Source: Terriglobus aquaticus
GTDB taxonomy: Bacteria; Acidobacteriota; Terriglobia; Terriglobales; Acidobacteriaceae
Reading direction: 5' to 3'
DNA length: 64,000 nucleotides
Assembly (NCBI RefSeq): GCF_025685415.1
Contig: NZ_JAGSYB010000001.1
Coordinates: forward strand, 3,348,001-3,412,000
The notes under the pieces are model-generated. The model made no database searches and was not told the DNA's origin. It saw only the letters and a program-made list of their open reading frames with translations. Of this stretch, positions 3,512 through 59,897 are shown piece after piece. How positions within the stretch are numbered: the stretch's first letter is position 1; every line of letters starts with the position of its first letter. The position numbers and the translations under genes are program-made.

Positions 3512-3524
3512 TTTCGTTTTATTC
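3512..3524 (+). promoter_or_regulatory. TTTC-repeat operator candidate (AgaR/DeoR-like)
   Basis: The core TTTCGTTTTATTC matches 12 of 13 positions of the pattern TTTCRTTTYRTTT, which I recall as the core of the E. coli AgaR consensus. It ends 32 nt before the ATG of the secreted glycosidase at 3557. It lies in the intergenic region that also serves the divergent sugar transporter. A closely related element is found upstream of agaS (8165-8177). Function is inferred. Confidence 0.45.
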
Positions 3525-3556
3525 TGGCTGCTCAGAATCGGGGAAGAAAGTTGCGC

Positions 3557-5551: not shown

Positions 5552-5585
5552 GGCCCGTTCGGACAAGCTAGTTATAGCTGTGAGT

Positions 5586-5619
5586 AGCAACGCCGCAACG
5601 GCTCCGTTCCGGCGTTGCT
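5586..5619. terminator. Bidirectional hairpin terminator
   Basis: AGCAACGCCG pairs with CGGCGTTGCT, and the interior AACGG/CCGTT extends the stem with a single C-C mismatch, giving about 15 bp in total. It sits between convergent genes ending at 5551 and 5649. Confidence 0.7.
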
Positions 5620-5648
5620 GTTGCAGATCTCTTTGTGCGTGAGGAGCT

Positions 5649-13351: not shown

Positions 13352-13846
13352 CTATGCGGACTTGAGGTTCGGGCCGATGGCCAGGACGAAGTAACTGGCC
13401 GTGGTGGTACCGGTGTTGCGCATGCCGTGCAGCACGTTGGAGGCAGCGTACAGGATGTCGCCGGGGCCGGCGGGTTCGCGCTTACCGTCGACCAGCCAGT
13501 CCACCTGTCCCTCGCGGATGAAGATAAATTCCTCATGCTCGTGCTGGTGCGGCGGATGGGGTTGCAGCCCGGCACCCAGGGTGCTGTTGTGCAGTTCGAC
13601 ACCTTCGCCGGTGGGCAGCGTGCCGTGGGTGACGGCCTGGGAGCTGCCGACTGCTGACGTCTTGATGGGGAGCTGGTTTGCCCGGAAAATCGTGTTATCC
13701 CGCAACAGAGCAGTGCCGCTGGGCAGGTGATCGGCGACGGCGCCATCCACGTGCTGGGCCTGTTGCGCGACCGCGGAGGTTTCGGCCAGGCGCGCAAGGG
13801 CGGCCAGAGCGGGCAAGGAGAGGCAAAGATCGCGGCGGCTGGTCAT
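13352..13846 (-). CDS. Exported cupin-domain protein
   Basis: A 164-residue protein with an N-terminal export signal (MTSRRDLCLSLPALAALARL, twin-arginine-like and ending near SAVAQ). A single cupin_2 barrel follows. The metal-binding motif HPPHQHEHEEFIFI is followed by the second cupin box GDILYAASNVLHGMRN. No catalytic assignment is possible; such small periplasmic cupins bind metal and small molecules. The ribosome-binding site is weak. It lies upstream of azoR in the same direction with a 155-bp gap, so co-transcription is possible but not obvious. Confidence 0.75.
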   Translation of the reverse strand: MTSRRDLCLSLPALAALARLAETSAVAQQAQHVDGAVADHLPSGTALLRDNTIFRANQLPIKTSAVGSSQAVTHGTLPTGEGVELHNSTLGAGLQPHPPHQHEHEEFIFIREGQVDWLVDGKREPAGPGDILYAASNVLHGMRNTGTTTASYFVLAIGPNLKSA

Positions 13847-13903
13847 AGCTCGGCAGCATACACGCTGCGCAGGACGGTCGTCGCGCAGACGGGTGAGCGC
13901 CGA

Positions 13904-14191
13904 TCAGGCCGGAAGGCCGGGATTCGTCTTCGATTCCGCCGGGGCTTTGCTCTTCAGGCGGAGCCATTCCAGCGGGCTGCAGTTGTCGGCGGCAACGGTA
14001 AACGGTTCCGTGCTGTGCACGCCGGTTGCCCCCATGTGGGTGTGCTGACGGCGCAACGCTTCGCCAACAATCCGCCGCACCTGCATGCGGCTGACCAGGT
14101 TTTCGGCCCTGGCGAGAATCAGGAAGCCTTCTCCGCAAACAGGACAGCGGAGGTCGTTGTAGGTGTGAGACAAGAGGCAGGTAATCGACAT
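13904..14191 (-). CDS. Small CPVCG protein, unknown function
   Basis: A 95-residue predicted cytoplasmic protein. ATG 14191 has a GGAG box about 9 nt upstream. The upstream extension of the frame is compositionally unlike it and was not used. It contains one zinc-knuckle-like CPVCGEGF pair (Cys 16 and 19), an amphipathic basic helix (LVSRMQVRRIVGEALRRQ), an HTH triplet and a third conserved-looking Cys (DNCSPLEW). One CxxC plus His residues could make a single metal site. It is divergent from thrS. I do not recognise the family and rate its reality as likely, not certain. Confidence 0.5.
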   Translation of the reverse strand: MSITCLLSHTYNDLRCPVCGEGFLILARAENLVSRMQVRRIVGEALRRQHTHMGATGVHSTEPFTVAADNCSPLEWLRLKSKAPAESKTNPGLPA

Positions 14192-14269
14192 CGGTACAAG
14201 CTCCAACCGAACAAGAAGTGCTGGGGTACTCCAGTCTTCGGCATAGCCCGTAGCAACGCGATTGCACTT

Positions 14270-14303
14270 CCGAGCCGCCCGGGTGCAACGCCCGGGGGCT
14301 CGG
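14270..14303. promoter_or_regulatory. Strong hairpin in thrS leader / divergent promoter region
   Basis: CCGAGCC and CCCGGG pair with CCCGGG and GGCTCGG across a 7-nt loop. This gives a 13-bp GC-rich stem with one bulged G (14277). It lies about 95 nt before the thrS start. No T-run follows, so it is not a typical intrinsic terminator. It may be a leader element controlling thrS or part of the divergent promoter. Confidence 0.4.
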
Positions 14304-17057: not shown

Positions 17058-17198
17058 GGGGCTAGGATAGCGGCGACAGACCGGTGTTGAAGCGCAGAAG
17101 TGTTCAGCGAGGAAGAGCAGGGATCACAGGCCCCTGCCCTCTCACACTCAAAAACAGATGTGCCCCCGCTTCAGCGGAGTGAGGGATCGGGTGCTTGC

Positions 17199-17714
17199 CT
17201 ACGCGGCGATGGTGGACTTGCGGCGCTTCTTCTTGTAAGCGACAAGGTCGTCCTGCCAGGAGCCAAGGGCTGCCGCGAGAGGCGCATCTTCGCCCAGCGG
17301 AGCGAGCTTGCTGAGCCTGCGAATCGCTTCGCCAAAGCTCGAGGCCGGCTTGCCCGAATTCATCGTGGCGGAGGCGGTGCCGTCGAGCAGGGCAGTGTCG
17401 GTGGCCAGGCGGCTCTCCGCGGCAACCGTCTGGTTCGGTGCAAGCGTGACCTCGGTGCGCGGATCGACCCAGCCTTCGGGTCGCAAGCAGCGCGGCAGTT
17501 CGTGGTCGGCGTACTCCACTCCGTTTGCATGCAGAGTGCGTGCTGTCGAGATGAGGGCGTCGCGCTTGGTGACCAGCTTGCGAATCGCGGCGTCACGCAA
17601 GGCTTGGGTGTCGAACGCTTCGTGCTTGTTGAGGTGAACTAACTTGCGGTCGTACAGATCGATCTCGCGATGGAGATCGCGGAGGAAGTACTTATCTTGC
17701 ACAATGGTGCGCAT
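17199..17714 (-). CDS. Conserved-looking hypothetical protein
   Basis: A 171-residue soluble protein. ATG 17714 has AGGAG 9 nt upstream, which supports translation. The N-terminal half is helical and charged (DKYFLRDLHREIDLYDRKLVHL, then QALRDAAIRKLVTKRDALI). The middle is an Ala/Thr-rich linker, and the C-terminus is a short helix ending in the basic tail VAYKKKRRKSTIAA, which could touch nucleic acid. No family recognised. It lies upstream of a 141-bp non-coding gap and downstream of the cold-shock gene's terminator, so it is transcribed alone. Confidence 0.6.
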   Translation of the reverse strand: MRTIVQDKYFLRDLHREIDLYDRKLVHLNKHEAFDTQALRDAAIRKLVTKRDALISTARTLHANGVEYADHELPRCLRPEGWVDPRTEVTLAPNQTVAAESRLATDTALLDGTASATMNSGKPASSFGEAIRRLSKLAPLGEDAPLAAALGSWQDDLVAYKKKRRKSTIAA

Positions 17715-17863
17715 CTCTGGATGCTCCTGTGATGTGGCGGGAAAAGTAGCAGAAATGACTGCAGGCAGGCCGGCATGGATGAGTTCGGCCTGCGGATATG
17801 TAGTGAGATGCCGATTTCGCGGGACGCAACAGCACTCCCCGGAACTTTTTGTGCATGAAAAGA

Positions 17864-17893
17864 CACAGGGGCGGCCCGAAGGCCGCCCCTGTG
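17864..17893 (-). terminator. Intrinsic terminator of the cold-shock gene
   Basis: A perfect 13-bp stem CACAGGGGCGGCC/GGCCGCCCCTGTG with tetraloop CGAA. On the minus strand it is followed by TCTTTTC. It lies 32 nt after the csp stop codon, a textbook intrinsic terminator. Confidence 0.9.
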
Positions 17894-17924
17894 GTGATCC
17901 GTGTGTGAGCCGGAGGCCCGTTAA

Positions 17925-18125
17925 CTATGCTGCCTGGACGTTCTCAGCCTGCCAGCCCTTGGGTCCCTTGACCACGTTGAACTGGACGCGCTGACCTTCC
18001 TGCAAAGAGCGGAAGCCCTGTGCCTGGATGGCGGTGTGGTGGACGAATACGTCCTCACCGTTGTCGCGCGAGATAAAGCCGAAGCCCTTGGCATCGTTGA
18101 ACCACTTCACAGTACCCTGTTCCAT
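17925..18125 (-). CDS. cspA: Cold-shock domain protein (CspA family)
   Basis: A 66-residue single OB-fold RNA chaperone of exactly the usual length. It carries [16 protein letters not shown] (RNP1, KGFGFI) and [10 protein letters not shown] (RNP2). ATG 18125 has AGGGA about 6 nt upstream. It binds single-stranded RNA and DNA and melts secondary structure. A roughly 200-nt untranslated stretch separates it from the upstream gene, leaving room for a structured 5' leader. A strong terminator follows at 17864-17893. The gene symbol denotes the family; several paralogues usually exist per genome. Confidence 0.95.
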
Positions 18126-18333
18126 CGCGTTTCCCTGTCCTCAATTGAGTGCTTTGCAAGTTTTCGCTTCAAATCCAGTACGGCCTTTGCAAGTGCGTTT
18201 GGGCAGGGCTAGCAAATTACCAAGACTGATTCGAACGATTTCGCACAGCGTACCACAGAAGTAGCAGGGCGCGGTTGACAAATTTCGCTGGTACGGAGTC
18301 CAACGCGCGCCCGGGAACAGGATGAGAAAGCGA

Positions 18334-18591
18334 CTAGGCGGTACGCCGGCGAATGAGGTGGTACAGCGCCAGCAGGATCAGAGCGCCGATGACCGACATG
18401 ATGAAGCCGGCGGGCTGACCGGGCTGATACAGACCAATGGCCTGACCCAGGTAGCTGCCCACGAACGATCCGGCAATGCCGAGCAGGGCAGTGATGATGA
18501 AGCCGCCTGGATCCTTGCCGGGCATGAGGAGCTTGGCGACGACACCGATGATGAGGCCGATGATGAGCGTAACGATGATCCCGTGGTGCAT
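18334..18591 (-). CDS. GlsB/YeaQ/YmgE family membrane protein
   Basis: An 85-residue inner-membrane protein. ATG 18591 has AGGAG 8 nt upstream. Three hydrophobic helices with glycine zippers are visible: IIVTLIIGLIIGVVAKLLMPG, GGFIITALLGIAGSFVGSYLG and FIMSVIGALILLALYHLIRR. The KLLMPGKDPGGF turn is the family signature. These transglycosylase-associated or stress-induced proteins have no firmly established function. It follows the MFS gene on the same strand, with a 97-bp gap. Confidence 0.9.
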   Translation of the reverse strand: MHHGIIVTLIIGLIIGVVAKLLMPGKDPGGFIITALLGIAGSFVGSYLGQAIGLYQPGQPAGFIMSVIGALILLALYHLIRRRTA

Positions 18592-18688
18592 GGGCAGATC
18601 TCCTGGAGGAAAAGTCTTGCAACCAACCGCTGCGCAGATAAGAGGTGGAAACCTGTCGGGACGTTGGATTGCTCCAGGGCGGAACGCA

Positions 18689-19975
18689 TTATTCGAGGGC
18701 GATGGCCTTCGTTTCAGGCACCATGGCCAGCCCGGCAAGCGTGAGCACCGCGGAGCCGGTCAGGTACCAGCCAACCGACTGCAGGCCGTAGCGCTGCGCC
18801 AGCCAGGTGGCAATATACGGTGCCAGCGAGGCTCCGAGGATGCCGGCGAGCGAGAACGCGAGCGAGGCCCCGGTGTATCGGACGGCGGTCGGGAACAGTT
18901 CGCTGATGACGGTGCCCAGCGGGCCATAGGTAAGGCCCATCAGAGTTAGTCCGATGATCAGCATGGCTGCGGCCCCGGAGGTTCCATGCTGGAAAAGCGG
19001 AGCGAGAACAAAACCGAAAATGCCGATGGCGACGGTTACGGCGGCCATGACGCGGCGACGTCCGCGCTCAGCCAGGATGGCGCTAATGGGAATGGTTGCC
19101 GCGAAGAAAACCACTCCCAGTAGTTGCAACAGAAGAAAGGTTTCGCGCGGGATGTGCAGCGCGGTCGTACCCCAACTGAGCGAGAAGACGATCATCAAGT
19201 AGAACAGGACGAACGTGGCGAGCGCGACCAGAACGCCCGCAATCAGCGGTCGCGTGTGCGACCGGACCACGGAGAAGAACGGCACCTTCACCTGCTCATG
19301 CTGCGCCAGCGCCTTGCTGAAGGCCGGCGTCTCCGTGATGGTCTGGCGAACGTAGAGGCCCAGCAGAACGAGGATGGCGGAAGCAAGGAACGGCAGTCGC
19401 CATCCCCAGGCCAGGAACTTCGCGTTGGGCATGTTGTGGCTCAGCAGGAGAAAGACCGCGCCGGAGAGCGCGAAGCCGACTGGCGCTCCAAGCTGGGGGA
19501 ACATGCCGTACCAGGCGCGCTTGCCGGGTGGTGCGTTTTCCACTGCAAGCAGGACGGCGCCGCCCCACTCGCCACCCAGGCCAAGGCCCTGGCCGAAACG
19601 GAACAGCGCCAGCAGAAGAGGCGCGGCAAGGCCGATGGTGGGGTAGCCCGGAAGGCAGCCGATGAGCACGGTGGACAGGCCCATGGTGCCGAGCGCAAGA
19701 ACCAGCGTCACCTTGCGGCCGACGCGGTCGCCGAAATGTCCGAAGAGCGCGGAGCCGATGGGCCGCGCGATGAACGCGACGCCGAACGTGGCGAAGCTGA
19801 GCAGCACCTGCGTCGCGGGGTCGCTCTTCGGGAAGAAGAGGCTCGGAAAGATGAGCACCGCGGCTGTGGCGTAGATGTAGAAGTCGAAGAACTCGATCGC
19901 GGTGCCGATGAGGGAGGCGAACAGGACCTGCGCGGGCCGGTTAATGGGCCGGGCGTTCAGTTGAGCTTCGTGCAT
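18689..19975 (-). CDS. MFS transporter, metabolite:H+ symporter family
   Basis: A 428-residue, 12-helix inner-membrane transporter of the MHS type (ProP/ShiA/KgtP relatives). Landmarks are LIGTAIEFFDFYIYATAA in helix 1, FGVAFIARPIGSALFGHFGDRVGRK through loop 2-3, and FRFGQGLGLGGEWGGAVLLAVENAPPGKR in helix 4. Likely substrates are organic acids or osmolytes; the sequence does not decide. ATG 19975 begins MHEAQL. An in-frame ATG at 19990, five codons earlier, has GGGAG but only 2-3 nt from the start, so either may be used. Neighbours give no substrate hint. Confidence 0.85.
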   Translation of the reverse strand: MHEAQLNARPINRPAQVLFASLIGTAIEFFDFYIYATAAVLIFPSLFFPKSDPATQVLLSFATFGVAFIARPIGSALFGHFGDRVGRKVTLVLALGTMGLSTVLIGCLPGYPTIGLAAPLLLALFRFGQGLGLGGEWGGAVLLAVENAPPGKRAWYGMFPQLGAPVGFALSGAVFLLLSHNMPNAKFLAWGWRLPFLASAILVLLGLYVRQTITETPAFSKALAQHEQVKVPFFSVVRSHTRPLIAGVLVALATFVLFYLMIVFSLSWGTTALHIPRETFLLLQLLGVVFFAATIPISAILAERGRRRVMAAVTVAIGIFGFVLAPLFQHGTSGAAAMLIIGLTLMGLTYGPLGTVISELFPTAVRYTGASLAFSLAGILGASLAPYIATWLAQRYGLQSVGWYLTGSAVLTLAGLAMVPETKAIALE

Positions 19976-26476: not shown

Positions 26477-26610
26477 GGTTCAAGTCTAGAGAACCATTGC
26501 TGTGCTATCCAGCGTTGCAAATGCCGCGGGTACGGGGCATGTTTTCTGCAAAACAGCGGTGTGGCTGTGCATTCATGTGCATCTGCGCTGCCTGTGCGAA
26601 GATGGCAGCC

Positions 26611-26907
26611 ATGTCGCAGAAGGATTCACTCCCCATCCCCGCCGCCGCTTCGAAGGATCCACGATCGCTGGAAGTGCTGCGCGTCTGGATCGCAGGCGGC
26701 GAGCAGCATGTGGCACTCGCATTCGGCATGTGGGAAGATCCAGCTGCCTGGGGCCTCCTGCTGGCCGACCTCGCGCGTCACATCGCCGAAGCACACGCTC
26801 AGCAGGACGACTCAGTCTCCGCCGAAGACTTCCTTGAAGAAATTCGCGCCGGCTTCGAATCTGAAATGGACTCGCCCAGCGACGAAGTCAGCGGGCAGGT
26901 GCAGTAA
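26611..26907 (+). CDS. DUF5076 family protein
   Basis: A 98-residue cytoplasmic protein. ATG 26611 (MSQKDS) is preferred; an in-frame ATG nine bases earlier (26602) is also possible. The core LEVLRVWIAGGEQHVALAFGMW, with EDPAAWGLLLADLARHIAEAH after it, matches DUF5076. The tail is acidic (EDFLEEIRAGFESEMDSPSDE). Function unknown. It is divergent from dnaB, and its short intergenic region holds no clear motif. Confidence 0.7.
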   Translation: MSQKDSLPIPAAASKDPRSLEVLRVWIAGGEQHVALAFGMWEDPAAWGLLLADLARHIAEAHAQQDDSVSAEDFLEEIRAGFESEMDSPSDEVSGQVQ

Positions 26908-26941
26908 GGCGGGAGGCAGAAAGCGAGGTTTCGGGCACTGC

Positions 26942-27604
26942 TCAGGAAGACTCTGCTAAAGCTCGCGAGCCAGCATTTGGATCAACGCCCTGTGCAGCAC
27001 TTCGTGCTTTCTGAATTAACCCGTAAATGCTTCTCGCGTCTGCAACATCGTAGAAAGCCAGCCTAGAAAGATCGGGGTAGAACTGAGAACTTCCCGTGCT
27101 ACGCCGCGAGTTCCAAAACGAGGTGGCGACCAGAGGCTCCGGAGAGAAATCAAGAGTTCCCGTGCCATCCTGCCGAGTCGTCAGTGAAATGCTCTCCAGG
27201 TTGCACAACTGGCTGCTGACGACTTTGCGGGTCGCTCCAGAGTTAACGACCAGAACCCTTTTCGTTGTGACTCCGTAGTATGTGCGACCCTTCTTCCATG
27301 CCGTGTACAGAAAGCGTCCCCAGATCATGTACTGGCCGACGACAATGAAGGGTATGCCCCAGAGCGCCATGAAGATGGAAAACCCGTCTTTTGCATTCTC
27401 AGAGCCGAAGTGACCGGTGGCGCCCCACTCCCAAAAGATTGCGAAGCCTCCCCAAAGTAGGCTGAACGGGATCGCCCACCAGTCACTGGGATGGAAGATG
27501 ATCTGACGAAGTGGCTGTCCGCTCCAGAGGAGGGTTTCACCGTTCAGGAGTTCCTCGCCGATTTCTTTCTCAATCTGTTGTTGCTGCTCGAGAGTGGCGT
27601 TCAT
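26942..27604 (-). CDS. PH-domain-like membrane protein
   Basis: A 220-residue protein with a Gln/Glu-rich helix at the start (ATLEQQQQIEKEIGEELL), then NGETLLWSGQPLRQIIFHPSDWW. Two membrane helices follow (AIPFSLLWGGFAIFWEWG and FMALWGIPFIVVGQYMIWGRF). A bacterial PH-like beta domain then opens with YYGVTTKRVLVV. The GE-LLWSGxP opening is typical of these sensors or scaffolds of unknown role. Its stop codon is 34 bp beyond the DUF5076 stop (convergent). It follows mnmG on the same strand after about 43 bp. Codon use is less GC-biased than its neighbours, which may hint at a different origin. Confidence 0.7.
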   Translation of the reverse strand: MNATLEQQQQIEKEIGEELLNGETLLWSGQPLRQIIFHPSDWWAIPFSLLWGGFAIFWEWGATGHFGSENAKDGFSIFMALWGIPFIVVGQYMIWGRFLYTAWKKGRTYYGVTTKRVLVVNSGATRKVVSSQLCNLESISLTTRQDGTGTLDFSPEPLVATSFWNSRRSTGSSQFYPDLSRLAFYDVADARSIYGLIQKARSAAQGVDPNAGSRALAESS

Positions 27605-27647
27605 TCTGAAGTTGAGTTCGATGTCGTAACTTGCCGAGAGCACCACT

Positions 27648-49164: not shown

Positions 49165-50964
49165 TCAGCCTCCGTATTGGCCCTTGGCGCGCTGGGTGCG
49201 TGGGCGCTGGATGGGCGCGGGTGCGGCCGCGGCCGAGTCACCAAGCCGCGGGTTCTGCGCGATGTATGCCTTGCTGTTGAACTTCCTGCCGGTGCTGGCA
49301 CCGCTCATGTAACGGATCTTGCCAAAGATGGGCCGCTCGCCCCAGGGCCGGTCAAACTTGCCGTAAATGGCCCAGGCGATGCCGGCGTAGCCGCCGGGAT
49401 CGCGGCCATCAATGAAGTACTTGTCGTTCAGGTAGATCAGCGTCTTCATCGCTTCGGCGTTGCTGGGCGACCACTCGAGCACTTTCTTGGCCCAGTACAT
49501 GCGCATGAAGTTGTGCATCCAGCCGCGGCGCACCATCTGCCGCTGGGCGGCGTTCCACAATTCGTCGTAGGTCTCGGCGTTCTCCAGTTCCTTTGCGGTG
49601 TAAAGCTGATCGCGCTTGTCGTGCGCGTGCTTCTCGACCGTCTTGCGCGCCCAGTCTTCGGCGGTTTCGGGGTTGTCGTAGTTGGCGTCCCACTTGACCC
49701 AGGCGACGCACAGTTCGCGCCAGGTGACCATCTCGTCGAGGAAGCTGTCGGCGCTTTCGCGCAGGTGCGGGTTCTTCGCCGCGGCGTTTTCGATGGCCAG
49801 ATAAATGCGCAGCGGGCTGATGTGACCGAAGTGCAGGTAGGGGCTGAGGACGCTGGTGCCGTCCACGTCCGGGTGGTTGCGCAGGTGAGCGTACTGCGGC
49901 AGCATGTGCGCGACAAAATGATCGAGGCGCGCCTGTGCCGCGTGCGCACCGCCGGTGAGCTCGTCGACCTTGCCGACGCTGCGGTCCAGGTCTTTCCAGC
50001 CCTTGGTCATGTCCTCGTGCGGGTCGTCGGCGTGGAAGTTCGCGGGTTTGTGCCAGGCGTGTTTGGCGCTGGGCTTGGTGGACTCTTCCAGGTACTCCGG
50101 GAGCATCTTCCAGAGCCTGCCGCGAACGGTGTACGCGGCGTAGGGCGCCTTCTCGTGGCGCTTCGTGGGCACGATCACGTCCGCATCGACGGTCCAGTAG
50201 GGGCCGTCGAACTTCTGCTGCACCTCCTGCCTCCACTGTTCGGGAACGCGCATGGGGTTCTCGTCGCCGATGACGATGGCGGCGTTGACATCGCGGAAGA
50301 ACTGCAGCCGGTCTTCATGCGGAGCGTTGCGCAGGACGAAGCTAACGTTGCGCTTGTGCAGATCTTCCTCCACGTCGCGCAGGCCTTCGTTCAGGAAGAC
50401 GTAACCGCGCAGGACGCCGTGGGGAAAGTTGGCAACGCCGCTGAAGAAAGCGACGACCGGCAGGCCGAGTTCGTTGGCGACTTCGATTGCGACGTCCAGG
50501 GCGAGGTTGTCGACGCCGCGTTCCGCGCGTTGCATCCAGTAGACGACGACCTTGCCGTCGGGCTTGGGCGGGCCATCGCGGCGAACGGTCACGCGATCGT
50601 TGCTGGCGATGCAGCGCAGGGCTTCGGGCAGATCGGGTGAGAGCGCGGCGTATGCGGCAGCTTCGCGGCGTTCGCGCTCGGTGCCCTCGCTGTTCTTGCT
50701 GCGTTTGGCTTTGGCGGTTTGGCCTGACCCGGGCTTGGCCTGGGCGCGCACGCTCGCCGCAGCCCGGATCGCTTTTTCGCGCGCCGGATGCGGAATGCCC
50801 GTGGGATCAGGCTCGCTCATGCCGGGCGCGGCGGGATCATGCGCGGGCTCACCGGGCGGCACGGCATCCGTCTTCTGGTGAGGCTGTTTCGGAGCGATCA
50901 ATGCTTTCGGTTGGGTCTGGCGTGTCTTCGCTTTTGCTTCGCGAGAAGTTTTCGTGCCGGCCAT
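49165..50964 (-). CDS. Class II CPD photolyase
   Basis: A 599-residue light-driven repair enzyme for cyclobutane pyrimidine dimers, with FAD. Residues 1-110 are a basic, Lys/Ala/Pro-rich extension absent from typical class II enzymes (about 450-480 residues). The photolyase core starts at about 115. Class II features are VVVYWMQRAERGVDNLALDVA, SPYLHFGHISPLRIYL, FLDEMVTWRELCVAWVKW, RRGWMHNFMRMYWAKKVLEWS, DGRDPGGYAGIAWAIYGKFDRPW and FGKIRYMS. A later in-frame Met (residue 49) is an alternative start, but the extension stays lysine-rich. It is divergent from the receptor gene at 51097. Confidence 0.94.
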   Translation of the reverse strand: MAGTKTSREAKAKTRQTQPKALIAPKQPHQKTDAVPPGEPAHDPAAPGMSEPDPTGIPHPAREKAIRAAASVRAQAKPGSGQTAKAKRSKNSEGTERERREAAAYAALSPDLPEALRCIASNDRVTVRRDGPPKPDGKVVVYWMQRAERGVDNLALDVAIEVANELGLPVVAFFSGVANFPHGVLRGYVFLNEGLRDVEEDLHKRNVSFVLRNAPHEDRLQFFRDVNAAIVIGDENPMRVPEQWRQEVQQKFDGPYWTVDADVIVPTKRHEKAPYAAYTVRGRLWKMLPEYLEESTKPSAKHAWHKPANFHADDPHEDMTKGWKDLDRSVGKVDELTGGAHAAQARLDHFVAHMLPQYAHLRNHPDVDGTSVLSPYLHFGHISPLRIYLAIENAAAKNPHLRESADSFLDEMVTWRELCVAWVKWDANYDNPETAEDWARKTVEKHAHDKRDQLYTAKELENAETYDELWNAAQRQMVRRGWMHNFMRMYWAKKVLEWSPSNAEAMKTLIYLNDKYFIDGRDPGGYAGIAWAIYGKFDRPWGERPIFGKIRYMSGASTGRKFNSKAYIAQNPRLGDSAAAAPAPIQRPRTQRAKGQYGG

Positions 50965-51096
50965 GCTGTGTGGGATGCGGGGCGAACCGGGGCATCGCTT
51001 ACCGCGAAAAAAGTAGTTCGATGAGAAAAGAATTCGATTCCGTTTCTTTTACCCGTCAGTCCAATGGAGCACCATGCCAGATCAGGCCGTTGTCTC

Positions 51097-53910
51097 ATGC
51101 TGAAGCTCACAGTAGCCGCCCTGCTGTGTCTTCCGGTTCCTTCCGGGCTTATGGCCGTTGACCAGGGCGCCGCGGCAGTGGCCACGCTGACCGTGACCGG
51201 GTCGGTGACTGACCCCTCCGGGGCCAAGCTGCGCGGAGCAAGAATCCACATCGAGCGTGGCGCGGTGAAGGCAGACGCGGAGACCGATGACGCCGGCCGC
51301 TTCTCGCTGGATGTGCCGGCTGGCGTGTACCGCCTGGCGATTACGGCCGACGGCTTTGAGCCGTATGTGCGGGAAAGCTTCAACGTGCGTGCGCGCATGG
51401 CTCCGCTTACGGTGGCGCTGCCTGTGGCGACCCTGAGCGAAGTGCTGACGGTGGAGGCCAACCAGGCCGATACAAGCGCGGGGAGCAATGGAAGTGCGCT
51501 GGTCTTCAAAGGCAAGCAATTGGATACCTTGTCAAACGACGACGCGACCTTTCAGCAGCAGGTGCAGGCCCTGGCCGGCGGTGACGGACAGCACGCGCCG
51601 CAGGTGTATGTGGATGGGTTTTCCGGCGGCAGGTTTCCACCGAAGAGCGCGATCCGCGAGATCCGCATCAACCAGAACCCGTTTTCTGCGCAGTACGACG
51701 AGCTTGGGTTTGGGCGCATCGAGATCTTCACCAAGCCCGGCAGTGACAAGCTGCATGGATACGTGCAGGTGCAGGGCAACGATCGCAGCTTCAACGCGCT
51801 GAACCCGTTCACGGGCGCACAGCCGCCGTATCACATGCTGTTTGTCGATGGGAATGTGAGCGGGCCGATCGGCAAGAAGACGTCGTTCTTCGCGTCTGCC
51901 AACTACGGCGACCAGGAGAACAACGCGGTAGTGAACGCGGTGGTACTGGATTCTAACTTTGCGACGACCCAGCTTTCGCAGGCGGTACCCAATCCTTCGG
52001 TGCGGCACGACTACAGCGTTCGGCTGGACCGGCAGATGTCGACCAACAACACCCTGACCGCGCGCTACGACTACAACAGCAACAACCAGACGAATGCGGG
52101 TGTGGGATTGCTGGTCTTGCAGAGCGAGGGCTACAACAGCACAATCGCGACGCAGACCTTGCAGATCGGCAACACGCAGATTATCGGTGCGCACCGGGTG
52201 AATGAGACGCGCTTCCAGTACATCCGCACACGCACGTCACAAATTGCGGTGGACAGCTCGCCGACGATCGTGGTGCAGGGTTCGTTCAACGGTGGTGGAG
52301 CGCCGTCGCAGAGCCTGCGCGACAATCAGGACCGGTATGAGTTCCAGGACTACTTCTCGCTGGAACGCGGCAAGCACTTCTTGCGAATGGGCGGGCGCTA
52401 TCGATTGTTGCGCGACAGCAATGTGTCGAACGCAAACTTCAACGGGCAATATATCTTTCCGGATCTGGCCACCTACCAGATCACCCAGCGCGGCCTCGCG
52501 GCAGGGCTGACGCCTGCGCAGATTCGTGCACAGGGCGGTGGAGCAACGCAGTTCAGCCTGACGGCGGGAACGCCGGGCGCTGCCTTGCTGAGTGGCGACC
52601 TGGGCCTGTATGCGGATGATGAGTGGAAGGTGACAAAAAGCGTGACGCTGAATCTGGGCCTGAGGTATGAAAGCCAGTTCGGCGTTCCGGATCACAGCGA
52701 TCCGGCACCGCGTGTGGGGTTCGCGTGGGCGGTGCACCAGGGCGACAAGCATCCGGCGTGGTTCACGGTGCGGGGTGGCACAGGCGTGTTCTATTCAAGG
52801 CTGGATGGTCCGACGCTGCTGAACACCGTCAGGCAGAACGGCATCCTGCAGCAGTCGTATTACTTGCAGCAGCCGGATACCTATCCGAATATCCCGCCGG
52901 TGTCATCGCTAAGCGGTGTGCCTTCGACGACGTATAGCCTGCAGCCGCGGCTCCGCAATCAGTACGACTTCACATCGAGTATTGGCGTGGAGCGCGGCCT
53001 GGGCAAGAAGGGCAACATCTCCGCGACCTACCTTCATTTTCAGTCCGTGCACCAGTACGTTTCGGTGAACGTGAACGCACCGCTGCCTGGTACCTACAAC
53101 CCTGCTGTGCCCAACAGCGGGACTCGACCGTTTGGCGATACGGCGAATCGGTATGAGTACACGGGTGAGGGGTCGGGAACGAGCGATGTGTTCTTCGTCA
53201 ACCCGAACTACTCGCCGGTGAAGCAGGTAAACCTGTGGGGTTTCTATGTGAACCAGCACTCCCACAGCAACTCGAACGGTGCCAGCACCTTCGCGTCGAA
53301 CTCCTACAACCTGGCGCAGGACTTTGGAAGGACGAACTTCAATCGCACCAACCGGTTGTTCCTGGGAGCGAACCTCAACTTGCCGTACGGCTTTGGCCTG
53401 AGCCCGTTTCTGATTGCCACGGCGGGTATGCCGTTCAACATCACGACGGGCAGCGACAACAACGGCGATTCGATCTATAACGATCGCCCAGCGTTTGCGA
53501 CGGACCTGACGCGCGCTTCTGTGGTGCGTACGCGATTCGGCAACTTCGACACGTCACCCATCGCGGGGCAGCGCATTATCCCGGTCAACTATGGCACCGG
53601 GCCGGCGTTCGCATCGCTGCAGTTGGATCTGGAGAAGAATTTCAAGTTCGGACCGCGGCGCGCACCCGAGGGAGTACCGCCGCCGGACCCGAATGCGAAG
53701 CCGGGCACGCCGGCGCCGAAGCCGGATCCGGCGTACCAGCTGAGCTTTTCCGTGGAGGCGCAGAACGTGACCAACCACACCAACGGTGCTACGCCGGTGG
53801 GCGTGCTGACGTCGCCGTTCTTTGGGCAGTCGTTGACGTTGAACGGCAACTTCTTCAACAACTCCGCCGCGAACCGGACGGTGCTGCTGCAGACGGCGTT
53901 TCGGTTTTAG
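51097..53910 (+). CDS. TonB-dependent receptor, Oar-like
   Basis: A 937-residue outer-membrane protein. ATG 51097 starts a good signal peptide (MLKLTVAALLCLPVPSG); an in-frame ATG at 51064 is possible. Neither has a strong ribosome-binding site. Residues 30-110 are the carboxypeptidase-regulatory domain (VTGSVTDPSGAKLRGARIHIE, GVYRLAITADGFE). The plug follows (QVYVDGFSGGRFPPKSAIREI, EIFTKPGSDKLHG), then the barrel. Near the end a Pro-rich loop (EGVPPPDPNAKPGTPAPKPD) precedes the last strands, which end QTAFRF. The stop lies 12 bp from the convergent RidA gene. Ligand unknown. Confidence 0.9.
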   Translation: MLKLTVAALLCLPVPSGLMAVDQGAAAVATLTVTGSVTDPSGAKLRGARIHIERGAVKADAETDDAGRFSLDVPAGVYRLAITADGFEPYVRESFNVRARMAPLTVALPVATLSEVLTVEANQADTSAGSNGSALVFKGKQLDTLSNDDATFQQQVQALAGGDGQHAPQVYVDGFSGGRFPPKSAIREIRINQNPFSAQYDELGFGRIEIFTKPGSDKLHGYVQVQGNDRSFNALNPFTGAQPPYHMLFVDGNVSGPIGKKTSFFASANYGDQENNAVVNAVVLDSNFATTQLSQAVPNPSVRHDYSVRLDRQMSTNNTLTARYDYNSNNQTNAGVGLLVLQSEGYNSTIATQTLQIGNTQIIGAHRVNETRFQYIRTRTSQIAVDSSPTIVVQGSFNGGGAPSQSLRDNQDRYEFQDYFSLERGKHFLRMGGRYRLLRDSNVSNANFNGQYIFPDLATYQITQRGLAAGLTPAQIRAQGGGATQFSLTAGTPGAALLSGDLGLYADDEWKVTKSVTLNLGLRYESQFGVPDHSDPAPRVGFAWAVHQGDKHPAWFTVRGGTGVFYSRLDGPTLLNTVRQNGILQQSYYLQQPDTYPNIPPVSSLSGVPSTTYSLQPRLRNQYDFTSSIGVERGLGKKGNISATYLHFQSVHQYVSVNVNAPLPGTYNPAVPNSGTRPFGDTANRYEYTGEGSGTSDVFFVNPNYSPVKQVNLWGFYVNQHSHSNSNGASTFASNSYNLAQDFGRTNFNRTNRLFLGANLNLPYGFGLSPFLIATAGMPFNITTGSDNNGDSIYNDRPAFATDLTRASVVRTRFGNFDTSPIAGQRIIPVNYGTGPAFASLQLDLEKNFKFGPRRAPEGVPPPDPNAKPGTPAPKPDPAYQLSFSVEAQNVTNHTNGATPVGVLTSPFFGQSLTLNGNFFNNSAANRTVLLQTAFRF

Positions 53911-53921
53911 CGGCCGGGTAC

Positions 53922-54353
53922 TTAAGGCTTGACGGCGATGGCGGAGATCTCGATCTTCGCGTTGCCGATGAGGCCGGCGACCTGCACGGTGGCGCGCGCG
54001 GGGCGGGGGAACGGCATGAGCTTCTTGTAGATCTCGTTCATGGCGGGCACGTCCTTCAGGTCTGCGACGAAGACGGTTACGGTGACCAGGTCGGTCATCT
54101 TGTAGCCGGCGCCGGTGACAATCTTCTCAATGGCGTGAATGGCGTTGGTCGTCTGCGTTTCGATGGAGACGCCTTCCAGCTTGCCGTTTTCCGGGCCTTC
54201 CTGGCCGGCGATGTAGATCGTGTTGCCCGCGATCACGGCCTGCGAGAAGGGCATCTCCGGCTTGGCGTCGATGTGGCGGTTCTCTTGAGCCAGGAGCGGC
54301 GCTGCGGCCAGCAGGGCAACGGGAACGGCAGCACGGCACAGGTGCTTGAACAT
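53922..54353 (-). CDS. Exported RidA-family protein
   Basis: A 143-residue protein with ATG 54353 (GAGAGG 9 nt upstream) and a signal peptide MFKHLCRAAVPVALLAAAPLLAQ. The mature part is a YjgF/YER057c/UK114 trimer fold: PFSQAVIAGNTIYIAGQEG, TTNAIHAIEKIVTGAGYKMTDLVTVTVFV and PARATVQVAGL (the conserved Arg that binds the carboxylate). Cytoplasmic RidA hydrolyses reactive enamines. An exported form is less usual and its substrate is unknown. Convergent with the receptor gene. Confidence 0.88.
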   Translation of the reverse strand: MFKHLCRAAVPVALLAAAPLLAQENRHIDAKPEMPFSQAVIAGNTIYIAGQEGPENGKLEGVSIETQTTNAIHAIEKIVTGAGYKMTDLVTVTVFVADLKDVPAMNEIYKKLMPFPRPARATVQVAGLIGNAKIEISAIAVKP

Positions 54354-54511
54354 GGAGAAGACCTCTCTGGGAGTGCAAGTCTGCGTGCCGTTGCGCGGGT
54401 GCGACAGATGCCCGGCACGTGAGTGAAGCATACCGAAGGTCCCCCGAGTGTCTGTAGGGCGGAAGTCGGAGATTGCTGCAGCAGACCGGCGCTGATCGCT
54501 ATGCTGGAAGC

Positions 54512-55033
54512 ATGGCTGAGTTTACTTTGCGCCGATGTGTCTCCGGTGACGAACCGATGTTGTCGCTGGTGGGAGGTGCGAGCTTTCTGGAAGCATTCGC
54601 GGATGTGCTGGATGGGCCGGATATCCTAGCGCACTTTCACAAGAATCATTCGGTGCAAGCGTACTCGAAGTATCTGGCGCCTGCGGAGAACCGCATCTAC
54701 GTTGCGGAGGTTGCGCCGGGTGCGGCACCGGTCGGCTACATCGTATGCACTGCGCCTGACTTCCCAATCGAAACGACGGCTGAAGATTACGAGCTACGGC
54801 GCATCTACCTGCTGCACCGCTTCCAAGGGTGCGGCATCGGCAAGGCGCTGATGGACCAGGCGATCGCGTCAGGGCGCGAGCTTGGCTACAAGCGGCTGCT
54901 GTTGGGGGTGTACGGCAAGAACTATGGCGCGATCCGGTTTTACGAGAAGGCGGGCTTCACGCAGATCGGCGAACGGTTCTTCACCGTGGGTGCGACGACG
55001 CACCATGATGCGGTGATGGCGCGGTCGCTCTGA
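54512..55033 (+). CDS. GNAT family N-acetyltransferase
   Basis: A 173-residue enzyme. The start MAEFTLRRC at 54512 fits the GNAT fold; an upstream in-frame start at 54473 is unlikely. Motif B/A elements are AEVAPGAAPVGYIVC, ELRRIYLLHRFQGCGIGKALMDQAI (acetyl-CoA pyrophosphate loop R/QxxGxG/A) and LLLGVYGKNYGAIRFYEKAGF. Resembles RimI-type or spermidine/small-molecule acetyltransferases; substrate unknown. Its last 164 bp recur at 55642-55805 as the edge of a tandem duplication. Confidence 0.88.
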   Translation: MAEFTLRRCVSGDEPMLSLVGGASFLEAFADVLDGPDILAHFHKNHSVQAYSKYLAPAENRIYVAEVAPGAAPVGYIVCTAPDFPIETTAEDYELRRIYLLHRFQGCGIGKALMDQAIASGRELGYKRLLLGVYGKNYGAIRFYEKAGFTQIGERFFTVGATTHHDAVMARSL

Positions 55034-55039
55034 GGCGAG

Positions 55040-55453
55040 TTAGAAGTCGTAGCTGACGCGCGGTAGGGCGGCGTGCTTCGGGCTCTTTGGATTGACGATG
55101 AGTTGGATTGGCTCGCCGGGGGCGAACGGACCATAGCGGACGACAAAGAGGCGGGTGGTGTTGCCGTCCGGCAGCTCGGCCTCAACGTCCCAGGTGGGAA
55201 CGTTATTGGTATAACCCGCGCTACGCGCGTGGATGACGCGGCCGACGGTTCGGACGCCGACGCGGCGAATCCATAGCTCGCGGATCAAATTGAAGATGAT
55301 CCAACCCACACTGCTGAACATCACCACAACGAAACAGCTGAACGGGATCGCGATGAGCCACGGGTGAGCGCTTGCACGGGGCAAGCAAAATGCACCTGTC
55401 GTAAACATGGCCAACATGCCGATCCCGAAGAGCAGCCAGTTCGTCCGGGGCAT
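55040..55453 (-). CDS. DUF3592-like membrane protein, copy A
   Basis: A 137-residue protein: ATG at 55453 followed by MPRTNWLLFGIGMLAMFTTG. Two membrane helices in the first 55 residues (the second AIPFSCFVVVMFSSVGWII) precede a beta domain with RRVGVRTVGRVIHARSAGYTNNVP and LPDGNTTRLFVVRYGPFAPGEPIQLIV. The domain is typical of DUF3592, a family without known function. It has the same length as copy B (55827-56240), with clear similarity throughout (for example RRVGVR-GRV-HAR, NNVP-W-VEA, PKHAALPR-S-DF). Confidence 0.75.
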   Translation of the reverse strand: MPRTNWLLFGIGMLAMFTTGAFCLPRASAHPWLIAIPFSCFVVVMFSSVGWIIFNLIRELWIRRVGVRTVGRVIHARSAGYTNNVPTWDVEAELPDGNTTRLFVVRYGPFAPGEPIQLIVNPKSPKHAALPRVSYDF

Positions 55454-55503
55454 CAGGACACCTCCCGCAAACGGATGCGCTGCGAGGGTCTTTGGCAACT
55501 TGA

Positions 55504-55641
55504 TTACTCGTCTTTTTTCTTATTGCGCGGACGCACCTTGAACCAGATGGGTGAGCCGATGAACTTCCAGCAGTCGCGGATCAGGTTCTGCAGAAAACGT
55601 TCGTAGCTGGAGTGCAGACGCACGTCGCGGCCGGTGAAAAG
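55504..55641 (-). pseudogene. 3' fragment of der (C-terminal 45 codons)
   Basis: This is a stump of the der gene, encoding the last 45 residues (from LFTGRDVRLHSSYERF to RPRNKKKDE). It has no start and is fused at its 5' side to GNAT sequence. The reading frame is intact. Compared with the real der it has D to G, F to S and R to C changes plus an ED/DE swap at the end; most other differences are silent. Confidence 0.85.
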
Positions 55642-55805
55642 CAGGGCGCGAGCTTGGCTACAAGCGGCTGCTGCTGGGTGTGTATGGCAAGAACTATGGC
55701 GCGATCCGGTTTTGCGAGAAGGCAGGCTTCACGCAGATCGGTGCGCGGTTCTTCACTGTGGTTGCGACGACGCACCACGACGCAGCGATGGCCCGAAGTC
55801 TATAG
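55642..55805 (+). pseudogene. 3' fragment of the GNAT acetyltransferase gene
   Basis: It encodes the last 54 residues of the acetyltransferase (GRELGYKRLLLGVYGKNYG to MARSL), without its start. The 164 bp align with 54870-55033 without gaps. By eye about 13 codons differ silently and four change an amino acid (Y to C, E to A, G to V, V to A). Confidence 0.87.
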
Positions 55806-55826
55806 TTCCAGGTGTGTCTTGCCCGG

Positions 55827-56240
55827 TTAGAAGTCCTGGCTGTAGCGTGGCAGTGCAGCGTGCTTTGGCATGCGGGGATCCACTATCAGTTCCAGCGTTT
55901 CACCAGGGGTGAACGCAGCGAATCGATCGATCATCAGGCGAGTTGTGGTTCCGTCTGGCAGAACCGCCTCGACCTCCCAAGAAGGAACATTGTTGGAAAA
56001 GCCCGAACTGCGGGCGTGCGATACGCGTCCGATGACCCGAACGCCGACACGACGTATCCAAAACTCACGAATCAGGTTAAAAGTGGCCCAACCTGCCGTG
56101 CTGCCGAGCACCAGCAATACGCACATAGCAGGCGGGATCAGGAAGCCCGGATGCCCGTAGACTCGCGGCATACAGGTAAAGCCCGTAATGAGCATTCCGA
56201 GAACGCCAATGCCGAGAACAAGCCAGTTGATTCGAGGCAT
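55827..56240 (-). CDS. DUF3592-like membrane protein, copy B
   Basis: A 137-residue paralogue of the protein at 55040-55453. ATG 56240 begins MPRINWLVLGIGVLGMLITG. Two helices and a beta domain are arranged as in copy A (RRVGVRVIGRVSHARSSGFSNNVP). By eye roughly 60% of residues are identical, well below the DNA similarity of the adjoining stumps. The open frame and conserved C-terminus (PKHAALPRYSQDF) argue that both copies are or were functional. Function unknown. Confidence 0.75.
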   Translation of the reverse strand: MPRINWLVLGIGVLGMLITGFTCMPRVYGHPGFLIPPAMCVLLVLGSTAGWATFNLIREFWIRRVGVRVIGRVSHARSSGFSNNVPSWEVEAVLPDGTTTRLMIDRFAAFTPGETLELIVDPRMPKHAALPRYSQDF

Positions 56241-56290
56241 GATTGCACCTGCGCGACAAAGATGCACAGGCCGCGACTTTGGCTGCTGAG

Positions 56291-58213
56291 CTAGTCTTCT
56301 TTTTTCTTATTGCGCGGACGCACCTTGAACCAGATGGGTGAGCCGATGAACTTCCAGCGGTCGCGGATCAGGTTCTGCAGGAAGCGCTCGTAGCTGAAGT
56401 GCAGGCGCACGTCTCGGTCGGTGAAGAGTACGAACGTGGGTGGCGCTACCGCGGCCTGCGTCATGTAATAGATGCGCACGCGCTTGGACCACGGCACGCC
56501 GGCGCGCTCGAAGTCGATGCCGTCGAGGAATTTGTTCATCTGGCCGGTGGAGATGCGCTTGCGGCGTTCGCGCGCGACCAGTTGCACCTTCTTGAAAACC
56601 TCTTCGACGTTGATGCCCTCGCGCGCGCTGATGAACAGCAGCGGAGCGTAATCGAGGTACTTGAGCGCGTCGCGCACCTGCTCGGTGTAGACCTTCTTGT
56701 CGGCTGGCTCGGGCACGTTCTCTTCGCCGGCGGCGATGCGCTGCTCGCGCTCGATGGTCACGGCGTCCCACTTGTTCACGACGATCACGACGGAGCGTCC
56801 GCTCTCATGCGCGTAGCCGCCGATGTTGGCGTCCAGCCCGGTAACACCCTCGGTAGCGTCGATGACGAGCAGCGCAACGTCGGCTGCTTCCAGGTGCTTG
56901 CGCGCCATGATGACCGACAGCTTTTCGGCCATGAGCGTGGTTTTGCCTTTGCGCCGAATGCCAGCGGTGTCGACGAAGCGGAAGCGGTGGCCGTCGCGCT
57001 CGACGGTCTCGTCCACTGCGTCGCGCGTGGTGCCCGCGATGGGTGAGACGATGGCGCGGCCGGTACCAGTGAGCGCGTTGAGCAGCGTGGATTTGCCGAC
57101 GTTGGGGCGGCCGATGATAGCGACGCTGGTCTCGCGGCTGACGTGTTCACCGTGGGAGCGCAGCTTGCGTTCCCGCGGCTGCTCTTCGCCGGTATCGTCT
57201 GAGGTTTCGGTGTCGTCTTCCCAAACCTCTTCGAGCTCGGGTGCTTCCTCGGGCTCGGTCGCGGGCATGGCGGCAGAGACGGCGTCGAGCAGGTCGCCCA
57301 CGCCCAGGCCGTGTTCGGCGCTGATGGGGAAGACTTCTTTGAAGCCGAGGGTGCGGAAGTTCTCGGCCTGCGGCGCGATCTTCTCCGTGTCCATTTTGTT
57401 TACGGCGAGGAAGATGGGCTTGCCGGAGCGGATGAGCAGGCGTGAGAGTTCGAGGTCGGGCGCGGCGATCTCGCTGCGGCCGTCGACCACCATGACAATG
57501 GCTTCGGCTTCTTCGAGCGCGACCTGGGCCTGGCGAAAGATCTCGCTGGGGATGAGGGCTTCGTCGTCAGGGATGACGCCGCCGGTGTCGACGATGCGGA
57601 GGACGCGGCCGTCCCAGTCGACTTCGCCGTAGATGCGGTCGCGGGTGATGCCGGGCTCGTCGCCGACGATGGAGCGGCGCGTGCCAGTGAGGCGGTTGAA
57701 GAGCGTGGACTTCCCCACGTTGGGGCGGCCGCAGATGGCGAAGAGCGGCGCAGAGATGCTGTCGCTGGGGCGCTGCGCTTCTTCGATAAGCGGGAGCATG
57801 CTGGCGAGCGCGTTCTCGGTTTCGGGATCGCTGAGGGCGGCGGAGTGGACGCCGCGCCGCGGTGCTTGTTCTTCAGGACGTGTTGCGGCGTGCTTGCGGG
57901 CGTCGCTGGATGCCATGCCGCGATCACCACGCGCGGGGCGGTTGGAAGCAGGGCGCATTTCTTTCGGCAGGGCGCCGGGGGCCATCTGCGCGCCAGTGAC
58001 AGCGCGGCCCTTTTGCCGGTCGGGCGATTGGGTCCGCACCTTGCCCTTGCTGAAGGAGGCGGCCTTCTTCGCGGCTACAGCCTTGCGCCCCTTGGGGGAG
58101 GCTCCGCTGAGCGCGCCGGCGGAGGGCTTTGCGCCCTTGGGTGTGGCACCCTTGTGCGGACGCGTTTGTGCCGACCGGTGCTTTTTGCCGAGCCGCTTTT
58201 TCTCAGGAGCCAT
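56291..58213 (-). CDS. der: Ribosome-biogenesis GTPase Der (EngA) with basic N-terminal extension
   Basis: A 640-residue tandem GTPase needed for 50S assembly. The first G domain has G1 CGRPNVGKST (162-170), DTGGV and LAVNKMD. An acidic linker (ELEEVWEDDTETSDDTGEEQ) follows. The second G domain has [29 protein letters not shown] and IVVNKWDAV. The KH-like C-terminal domain ends IWFKVRPRNKKKED. Residues 1-150 are an added Lys/Arg/Ala/Pro-rich segment (for example KKRLGKKHRSAQTRPHKG) absent from the usual proteins of about 450-490 residues. It is the intact copy; its 3' end recurs at 55504-55641. Confidence 0.95.
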   Translation of the reverse strand: MAPEKKRLGKKHRSAQTRPHKGATPKGAKPSAGALSGASPKGRKAVAAKKAASFSKGKVRTQSPDRQKGRAVTGAQMAPGALPKEMRPASNRPARGDRGMASSDARKHAATRPEEQAPRRGVHSAALSDPETENALASMLPLIEEAQRPSDSISAPLFAICGRPNVGKSTLFNRLTGTRRSIVGDEPGITRDRIYGEVDWDGRVLRIVDTGGVIPDDEALIPSEIFRQAQVALEEAEAIVMVVDGRSEIAAPDLELSRLLIRSGKPIFLAVNKMDTEKIAPQAENFRTLGFKEVFPISAEHGLGVGDLLDAVSAAMPATEPEEAPELEEVWEDDTETSDDTGEEQPRERKLRSHGEHVSRETSVAIIGRPNVGKSTLLNALTGTGRAIVSPIAGTTRDAVDETVERDGHRFRFVDTAGIRRKGKTTLMAEKLSVIMARKHLEAADVALLVIDATEGVTGLDANIGGYAHESGRSVVIVVNKWDAVTIEREQRIAAGEENVPEPADKKVYTEQVRDALKYLDYAPLLFISAREGINVEEVFKKVQLVARERRKRISTGQMNKFLDGIDFERAGVPWSKRVRIYYMTQAAVAPPTFVLFTDRDVRLHFSYERFLQNLIRDRWKFIGSPIWFKVRPRNKKKED

Positions 58214-58310: not shown

Positions 58311-59897
58311 GTGAATCGAAGAAGCTTTCTGGAGAAGTCAGCCGTCGCGGTGATCGCAAGCCAGGCAAGGGCGTTCGGACTTGCTTCGGAGGCGCCAGCC
58401 GCGGTGAATGCCGATGCGCCTGTGTTTCAGACGGCGGATGCTCGGTGGCAGGCGGGATACGATCACGCGTTGCGCGTGCTGGCGGGCAATGTGCAACGGC
58501 TGCCGAACTACAAGGACGTGGTGCTGATCGAGGGTGCGGTGTACCCCGGCATCTGGCAGGAGTGTGGGCCGCACGAGTCGCTGGTATACCGGAGGTTCCG
58601 GCCGGAGGTGGCGCGCGCGAGCCACATGGTGTTCTTTGACAAGCAGCGGAACGACGGCCAGTTGCCGGCGAATCACAAGCGCACCGAGACGGGATTCGGG
58701 CAAACCCAGATGGTCGTGCCGATCGCCGCGACGGCGTGGGAGCTGGCTGCGGCGACGCGCGACGAGGAGTTCCTGCATACGGCGTATACGGCGTGCAGTG
58801 GATGGGACGGCTGGCTTTCGCAGTACCGCAACACGCGTGCGACGGGGTTGGTCGAGGGCTTTTGCACGTACGACACCGGAATGGACAACAGCCCACGGTG
58901 GAAGGGTATTCCGAATCAGTGCCCGGGAAAAGATGCGAAGCGGTTTCCGGAGGGGTACAAGCTGCCGCGGCTGTGTCCGGACCTGTCGGCGACGGTGTAC
59001 GGCGGGCGGGTAGCGCTGGCGGAGATGGCGCGTGCGCTGGGTCGGCCGTCGGAGGCGCAGCAATGTCAGGACCGTGCGGAAAGGCTGCGTGCGCTGATCC
59101 TGAAGCGGCTGTATGTGCCGGAGGATGCGGCGTTCTACGACCTTGATGCGGACGACAAGTTCGTGCGGGTCGATTGCGACATCCTGTCGCGTATGTGCGG
59201 TGAGCATGTGGTGGAGCAGAAGCTGTTCGAGACGCTGTGGGCGCGGCAGTTCAGCGATCCGAAGAAGTTCTGGGCGCCGTACCCGTTGCCGTCGGTGGCG
59301 CTGGACGATCCGCAGTTTGTGCGGCCCATTCCGCGCAACAGCTGGGGTGGCGCGACCCAGGCACTGACCGCGCTGCGCACGCCACAATGGATGGACCACT
59401 ACGGCCGGTCGGCCGAGTTTGCTCACCTTGCGAATCAGTGGTGCGAGGCGATCCTGCGCGAGGGCGATTTCCGGCAGCAGATGGACCCGGTCAGCGGCGT
59501 CTTCAGCCATGAGGATTCGGGCGGCTACTCGCCGGCAGCGCTGGTGATGGTGGACTTCACGTGGAGGCTGGCGGGCATCGTGGAGACCCCGGGAGAGGTG
59601 CAGTGGAACGTTCGGCCCGGGTGTGCGGCCAGCAACGGGGCGAGCTTCCGTATGCGCTCGGATTCAGGAGCGATGCTCGACTTGAGCTACGCCGCCGATG
59701 GAGCGACACTGAGGCGGAACGGGCGCGAGATCGCGCGGCTGACCGGGGGCACAGCGCGTGTGATTACTGACCCTAATGGCACACCGACTGCCCTGCTCGG
59801 CATTCATGCCGAGGCGCAGGCCGTCACGTTCCAACAGGGCCGGCACAAGCGGCATTACACCCTTCGCGCCAATGAACGCGTGCTGCTGAAGGCGTAG
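58311..59897 (+). CDS. Exported (alpha/alpha)6-barrel glycosidase, GH63/MGH1-like
   Basis: A 528-residue protein starting at GTG 58311 (GGGAG 7 nt upstream). The N-terminus has a twin-arginine signal (MNRRSFLEKSAVAVIASQARA). Helical-barrel motifs recall glucosidase/trehalase-like GH63/GH37 folds: GIWQECGPHESLVYRRF, FCTYDTGMDNSPRW, LSATVYGGRVALAEMARALG, AAFYDLDADDKFVRVDCD and RNSWGGATQALTALRTPQW. A small beta-sandwich ends it (NVRPGC to HYTLRANERVLLKA). The DNSPRW and GGY segments are the likely sugar-binding face. Substrate unknown; it stands alone, between der and a helicase gene. Confidence 0.75.
   Translation: MNRRSFLEKSAVAVIASQARAFGLASEAPAAVNADAPVFQTADARWQAGYDHALRVLAGNVQRLPNYKDVVLIEGAVYPGIWQECGPHESLVYRRFRPEVARASHMVFFDKQRNDGQLPANHKRTETGFGQTQMVVPIAATAWELAAATRDEEFLHTAYTACSGWDGWLSQYRNTRATGLVEGFCTYDTGMDNSPRWKGIPNQCPGKDAKRFPEGYKLPRLCPDLSATVYGGRVALAEMARALGRPSEAQQCQDRAERLRALILKRLYVPEDAAFYDLDADDKFVRVDCDILSRMCGEHVVEQKLFETLWARQFSDPKKFWAPYPLPSVALDDPQFVRPIPRNSWGGATQALTALRTPQWMDHYGRSAEFAHLANQWCEAILREGDFRQQMDPVSGVFSHEDSGGYSPAALVMVDFTWRLAGIVETPGEVQWNVRPGCAASNGASFRMRSDSGAMLDLSYAADGATLRRNGREIARLTGGTARVITDPNGTPTALLGIHAEAQAVTFQQGRHKRHYTLRANERVLLKA

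Follow-up and report, generated by a model that had tools for sequence, protein, structure and literature searches.

The window, a 64,000-nucleotide stretch of the 4.16-Mb, two-contig genome of Terriglobus aquaticus, contains a tandem repeat in which an intact GNAT acetyltransferase gene (+) is followed by copy A of a small gene (DUF; -), a headless stump of der (-), a headless stump of GNAT (+), DUF copy B (-) and intact der (-). The features of the locus, including two stretches of the repeat that stand out in silent divergence, are as follows.

54512..55033, + strand: intact GNAT acetyltransferase gene, 173 aa (Pfam PF00583, E 1.5e-16)
55040..55453, - strand: DUF copy A, 137 aa, predicted as two helices with strands after them; 60% amino-acid identity to copy B (DUF3592 E 0.18, below cut-off; model mean pLDDT 67.6)
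55504..55641, - strand: headless der stump, last 46 codons; 7 silent and 5 replacement codons relative to intact der
55641..55642, no strand: junction of the der and GNAT stumps, without shared bases at the break (three-way comparison)
55642..55805, + strand: headless GNAT stump, last 54 codons plus two bases; 14 silent and 4 replacement codons relative to intact GNAT
55776..55805, + strand: deep GNAT tail, stump codons 45-54 (partner 55004-55033); 9/10 codons differ, 8 silently (scan permutation P 0.006)
55827..56240, - strand: DUF copy B, 137 aa; dS 3.25 and dN 0.315 relative to copy A
56291..58213, - strand: intact der (EngA) GTPase gene, 640 aa (Pfam PF01926 twice and PF14714)
56300..56380, - strand: quiet der patch, repeat codons 17-43 (partner 55513-55593); 0 silent and 1 replacement difference (scan permutation P 0.007)

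The repeat unit is present as A (54870-55641) and B (55642-56428), which align over their full length and were the sole two matches in a search of the genome. The end-to-end alignment agrees with the initial annotation, which had described a tandem unit with headless GNAT and der stumps meeting at 55641/55642. A second copy of the surrounding 8.1 kb was not found anywhere in the genome. In a three-way comparison, the junction appeared as one join without homology, the present-day sequences having no bases in common at the break. The unequal recombination proposed earlier is, thus, tenable only as a join that lacked homology at its breakpoint, and the intact neighbours on both sides, read at the time as signs of a merger, are indeed compatible with an addition.

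TonB-receptor-like and RidA-like ORFs (named by reading) occupy 51064-54431, between orf49 (49165-50964) and GNAT. In genomes G014, G018, G003 and G010, orf49 adjoins GNAT, without matches to these ORFs. On the other side of the locus, a 528-aa ORF (58311-59897) lies between der and dinG and went unmatched in the G005, G007 and G010 stretches that carry these two genes. Judged by these comparisons, the 528-aa ORF and the TonB, RidA and DUF genes appear to make up a spot of several lineage-specific genes. In G010, der, dinG, orf49 and GNAT are found within 10 kb (L090, 6968-16814), arranged as a circular permutation of the order in the window. ORFs with low third-position GC (0.54-0.68, relative to a window mean of 0.76) are located at 3519-6232, 13695-14288, 17100-18744 and 26497-27646.

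The two DUF copies align over 138 codons without gaps, with 53 silent and 55 replacement differences and 60% amino-acid identity, and are saturated at silent sites. A dN of 0.315 with a dS of 3.25 indicates that both copies were under protein-level constraint through most of their separate history; these values imply past constraint, not a present need for both copies. The middle gene had been taken for DUF3592 (PF12158), an assignment that the profile search matched only below the cut-off: copy A scored 12.9 bits against a Pfam cut-off of 25.3 (E 0.18), and copy B had no DUF3592 match. The structure model of copy A, two helices followed by strands, is of low confidence (mean pLDDT 67.6, pTM 0.38). 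Both copies share the strand of der and are downstream of it, an arrangement in which they could be read from the der transcript; a promoter and terminator scan of 54900-56400 found none (chance expectation 0.6 and 1.8, respectively). A 160-aa ORF on the + strand (55812-56294) overlaps copy B and is probably non-coding, because the A/B differences track the codons of the - strand. A foreign composition of unit B was considered and rejected: GC3 was 85/138 in copy B and 107/138 in copy A (P 0.006), but copy B was within the spread of 39 window ORFs (mean 0.76, sd 0.09, minimum 0.54; the set contained the antisense ORF 55812-56294 instead of DUF B). A plasmid source of copy A was also rejected, as no match was found among plasmid records. 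By analogy with the immunity arrays of Vibrio cholerae, the small membrane-type DUF might act as an immunity-like or conflict factor, with successive arrivals stacked beside a housekeeping gene and each version still protective, an idea that we regard as improbable.

We compared the stumps with the intact genes codon by codon. The GNAT stump aligns to 54870-55033 without gaps and carries 14 silent differences (13 plus the stop) and 4 replacements in 54 codons, in line with the earlier count of about 13 silent codons and four replacements over an ungapped 164 bp. The der stump keeps its frame over all 46 codons, as had been stated, with 7 silent differences (one of them the stop) and 5 replacements. 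The description of the differences as mostly silent, thus, holds for GNAT (14:4) and only weakly for der (7:5). All four GNAT replacements are at residues invariant in 12 ortholog rows (from 11 genomes, L034 repeating G018). For the three der replacements in the interior (defined as GNAT codons 1-49 plus der codons 1-43), one residue is conserved in 29/29 relatives and one in 26/29, while the third (codon 24) is a variable site. When polarized with relatives (11 for GNAT and 17 of 29 for der), 6/7 interior replacements oppose a base common to all relatives used; at the seventh, the relatives lean to the intact copy, 4 to 1, with 12 matching neither. At silent sites, where an even split is expected, the relatives agree with the intact copy at 10 and with the stump at 5, one site being tied; this is compatible with an even split, but change leans to the stump. 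In unpartitioned trees, the stump branches were 5 to 6 times longer than those of the intact copies (0.095 and 0.018, respectively, for GNAT; 0.065 and 0.010 for der). This is partly due to the replacements, and some of it may come from looser codon choice in dead DNA. The stumps are decaying at present. A hand estimate, using a replacement:silent opportunity of 2.47 at a transition bias of 4 and GC of 0.5, puts the dead share of the stump/intact divergence time at ~0.35 to 0.38; the joining had been called recent, which stands only in the relative sense that about a third of this divergence postdates death.

Silent divergence was strongly uneven along the repeat. Among codons for the same residue, 53/76 differed in the DUF pair and 15/82 in the stump interiors (Fisher 5e-11), and dS was 3.25 for the DUF pair, 0.34 for GNAT codons 1-49 and 0.25 for der codons 1-43. 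The differences in the GNAT stump are clustered, with 9/10 codons differing at positions 45-54 and 9/44 at positions 1-44 (scan permutation P 0.006); this tail is nearly saturated at silent sites, yet 9/10 of its residues are kept. In der codons 17-43, 1/27 differed and none silently (scan permutation P 0.007). None of our interspecies comparisons of GNAT (12 rows from 11 genomes) or der (24 rows) reached the silent divergence of the DUF pair. So the GNAT tail and DUF spent a long period diverging as working sequence, and the tie between the interiors dates from much later. The uniform age of two units that is expected of a simple tandem gene duplication was, therefore, not observed (15/82 versus 53/76). 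Nor could we retain the single split depth that the initial annotation implied for both units, since the stump interiors are much shallower than both the DUF pair and the GNAT tail. Silent-site depth rules out both a merger at one depth and plain neutral decay, and the inequality of depth means that a mosaic step is required. Inspected by eye against 8 relatives for intact der and 6 for intact GNAT, silent divergence showed no clear step along either gene.

We simulated stumps that were dead from the start, keeping the total of differing codons fixed, at a transition bias of 4 with an equilibrium GC of 0.5, and at 6 with 0.4. As replacements then arise only on the stump side and silent changes on both, the silent:replacement ratio of such a stump is independent of its age and of gene conversion. 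The pooled ratio of 21:9 was matched by 0/609 (bias 4, GC 0.5) and 3/588 (6, 0.4) simulated pairs, the interior ratio of 15:7 by 3/555 and 6/477, and that of GNAT alone, 14:4, by 0/662 and 1/610. With the entire GNAT tail and the final three der codons excluded, the ratio of 12:6 was matched by 11/479 and 17/484. For der alone (7:5), the excess was not significant in most of 9 settings (P 0.02-0.20). The GNAT tail, with 8 silent differences to 1 replacement, was matched by 0/3000 dead-from-start simulations at each of 9 times in each of 9 rate settings; a positive control, in which both copies worked over most of the time before a short neutral phase, produced 8:1 in 0.1% to 4.5%. These results are good evidence against stumps dead from the start, carried mostly by GNAT. 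Taken with the stump-side replacements, the silent excess indicates that the pieces diverged first as working genes and that death came later. The rarity of the pooled ratio bears out the earlier argument that a silent excess is at odds with neutral decay after a simple duplication; the companion claim, that the units diverged as working genes before joining, is sustained in part, for GNAT and the pooled data.

The available relatives include Terriglobus roseus (the GNAT query matches L033 at 77% protein identity). In trees with 11 GNAT relatives and 17 of 29 der relatives, each stump and its intact copy were each other's nearest sequence (IQ-TREE support 90 for GNAT and 95 for der). Interior dS to relatives never fell below 0.76 for GNAT (12 rows) or below 0.52 for der (24 rows). 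A donor lineage was not found in 18 other genus, 300 family and 399 class genomes, and, by these comparisons, no sampled species appears to be the donor. DUF relatives were present in 0/18 other genus genomes, in 1 other of the family genomes and in 2 others of the class genomes (the two sets overlap, and each count takes in the window's own genome). The matches were weak: in G236, a 274-aa protein matched along part of its length at 35% identity, and in G156 the match had E 5e-4 and two stops. The single-copy GNAT-DUF-der order, which the initial annotation proposed to look for, was absent from all relatives searched. Among the 11 genus genomes having both GNAT and der, the two genes shared a contig in 6 (nearest 9 kb, in G010) and were on separate contigs in 5; none showed the adjacency seen in the window, with coverage extending only 1 to 1.6 kb past der at contig ends (for example, in G014 and G016).

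We lean, with moderate confidence, towards an addition in which a GNAT-DUF-der fragment of another, related lineage was placed beside the resident locus, not in its stead, by one non-homologous join and one homologous crossover, and exchange or conversion then made the mosaic. We infer two lineages sharing the GNAT-DUF-der order with deeply different DUF versions. The incoming piece would have been short, with one end at GNAT codon ~120 and the other ~46 codons short of the der terminus, and the non-homologous join would now be seen at 55641/55642. The ends of the fragment may have been joined into a circle that entered by a single crossover, or the fragment may have entered through homology-facilitated illegitimate recombination. 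The product would be intact GNAT, DUF A and the der stump, followed by the GNAT stump, DUF B and intact der, with the stumps decaying after the joining. The uneven depth could have arisen before the join, by exchange of cassettes, or after it, by heteroduplex repair and gene conversion; the interiors might be shallow because the lineages themselves were, with a deep DUF cassette swapped in, or because later conversion acted on deep lineages. At the second boundary, der and GNAT homology is present along with the quiet patch, and the intact genes display no divergence step by eye. The patch at der codons 17-43 may be the mark of the crossover, as a repaired heteroduplex. The genome encodes the end-joining protein Ku. 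It also encodes ComEC and DprA, but these are found in 10 and 11 of 14 control genomes, respectively, and are, therefore, uninformative on competence.

Alternatively, a 0.77-kb tandem duplication within the lineage could have created the stumps instantly, the DUF copies then drifting while gene conversion from the intact genes refreshed the stumps. The patchy identity fits such conversion, with der codons 17-43 lacking silent change and GNAT codons 1-44 differing at 9/44, and conversion would end near the DUF edge, where both tails diverged. Its age, however, leaves the ratio of a dead stump unchanged, and the silent excess stays (interior 3/555 and 6/477); the GNAT tail is near-saturated silently and still keeps 9/10 residues, and a DUF missing from the 18 other genus genomes would be odd for a genus-deep duplication. 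We consider this explanation doubtful. Even the plainest scheme, duplication and then neutral decay, with neither conversion nor merger, agrees with der alone (7:5) in most settings, but it receives almost no credence from us, as the tests rejected a uniform age (Fisher 5e-11; scan P 0.006 and 0.007), and the pooled silent count (21:9) is likewise incompatible with it.

The order of silent change first and death later would also follow from a larger tandem duplication within one genome, in which both copies of GNAT and of der stayed functional over a long period, until a der-to-GNAT deletion between the copies left the stumps face to face. The end product would be the same, and the permuted order of der, dinG, orf49 and GNAT within 10 kb of G010 speaks in its favour. 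Against it, no trace of a second copy was found elsewhere in the genome, and the uneven depth is left unexplained. Moreover, long tandem duplications in bacteria are unstable. We, thus, find a larger duplication decidedly unlikely.

If a fragment of another lineage was indeed added, the locus is a small, readable fossil of additive recombination, in which paired stumps serve as clocks both for divergence while working and for the time since death. A tandem pair in one genome is not necessarily a duplication, and the distinction can be drawn from silent-site depth along the repeat; without it, DUF A and DUF B would pass for ordinary paralogs.

The event belongs to a known class. Our searches of the literature on gene conversion of truncated tandem copies and on divergent alleles joined in tandem found no fitting bacterial case. 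In Streptococcus pneumoniae, DNA uptake in transformation leads to merodiploids with tandem duplications and two versions of a locus, and one 3,276-bp duplication lacked flanking repeats (PMC3784515). The pneumococcal duplications described there were mostly 100-900 kb, between repeats and with near-identical versions, whereas the present unit is <0.8 kb with a junction without repeats. In E. coli conjugation, incoming circles gave partial duplications of 109-950 bp by single crossover, the homologous end being duplicated via one homologous crossover, as would be the case here (PMC3240628). That system used a laboratory plasmid and a near-identical target; in contrast, the versions at our locus are diverged and old. 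The V. cholerae T6SS orphan immunity arrays, for which the authors proposed homology-facilitated illegitimate recombination, are similar in that a new version is inserted, the older downstream gene is retained behind it and the displaced upstream gene persists as a stump of its 3' end (PMC5361080). Unlike in those arrays, which are made of effector and immunity genes, the upstream gene here is the housekeeping GTPase der, and there is a second stump, that of GNAT.
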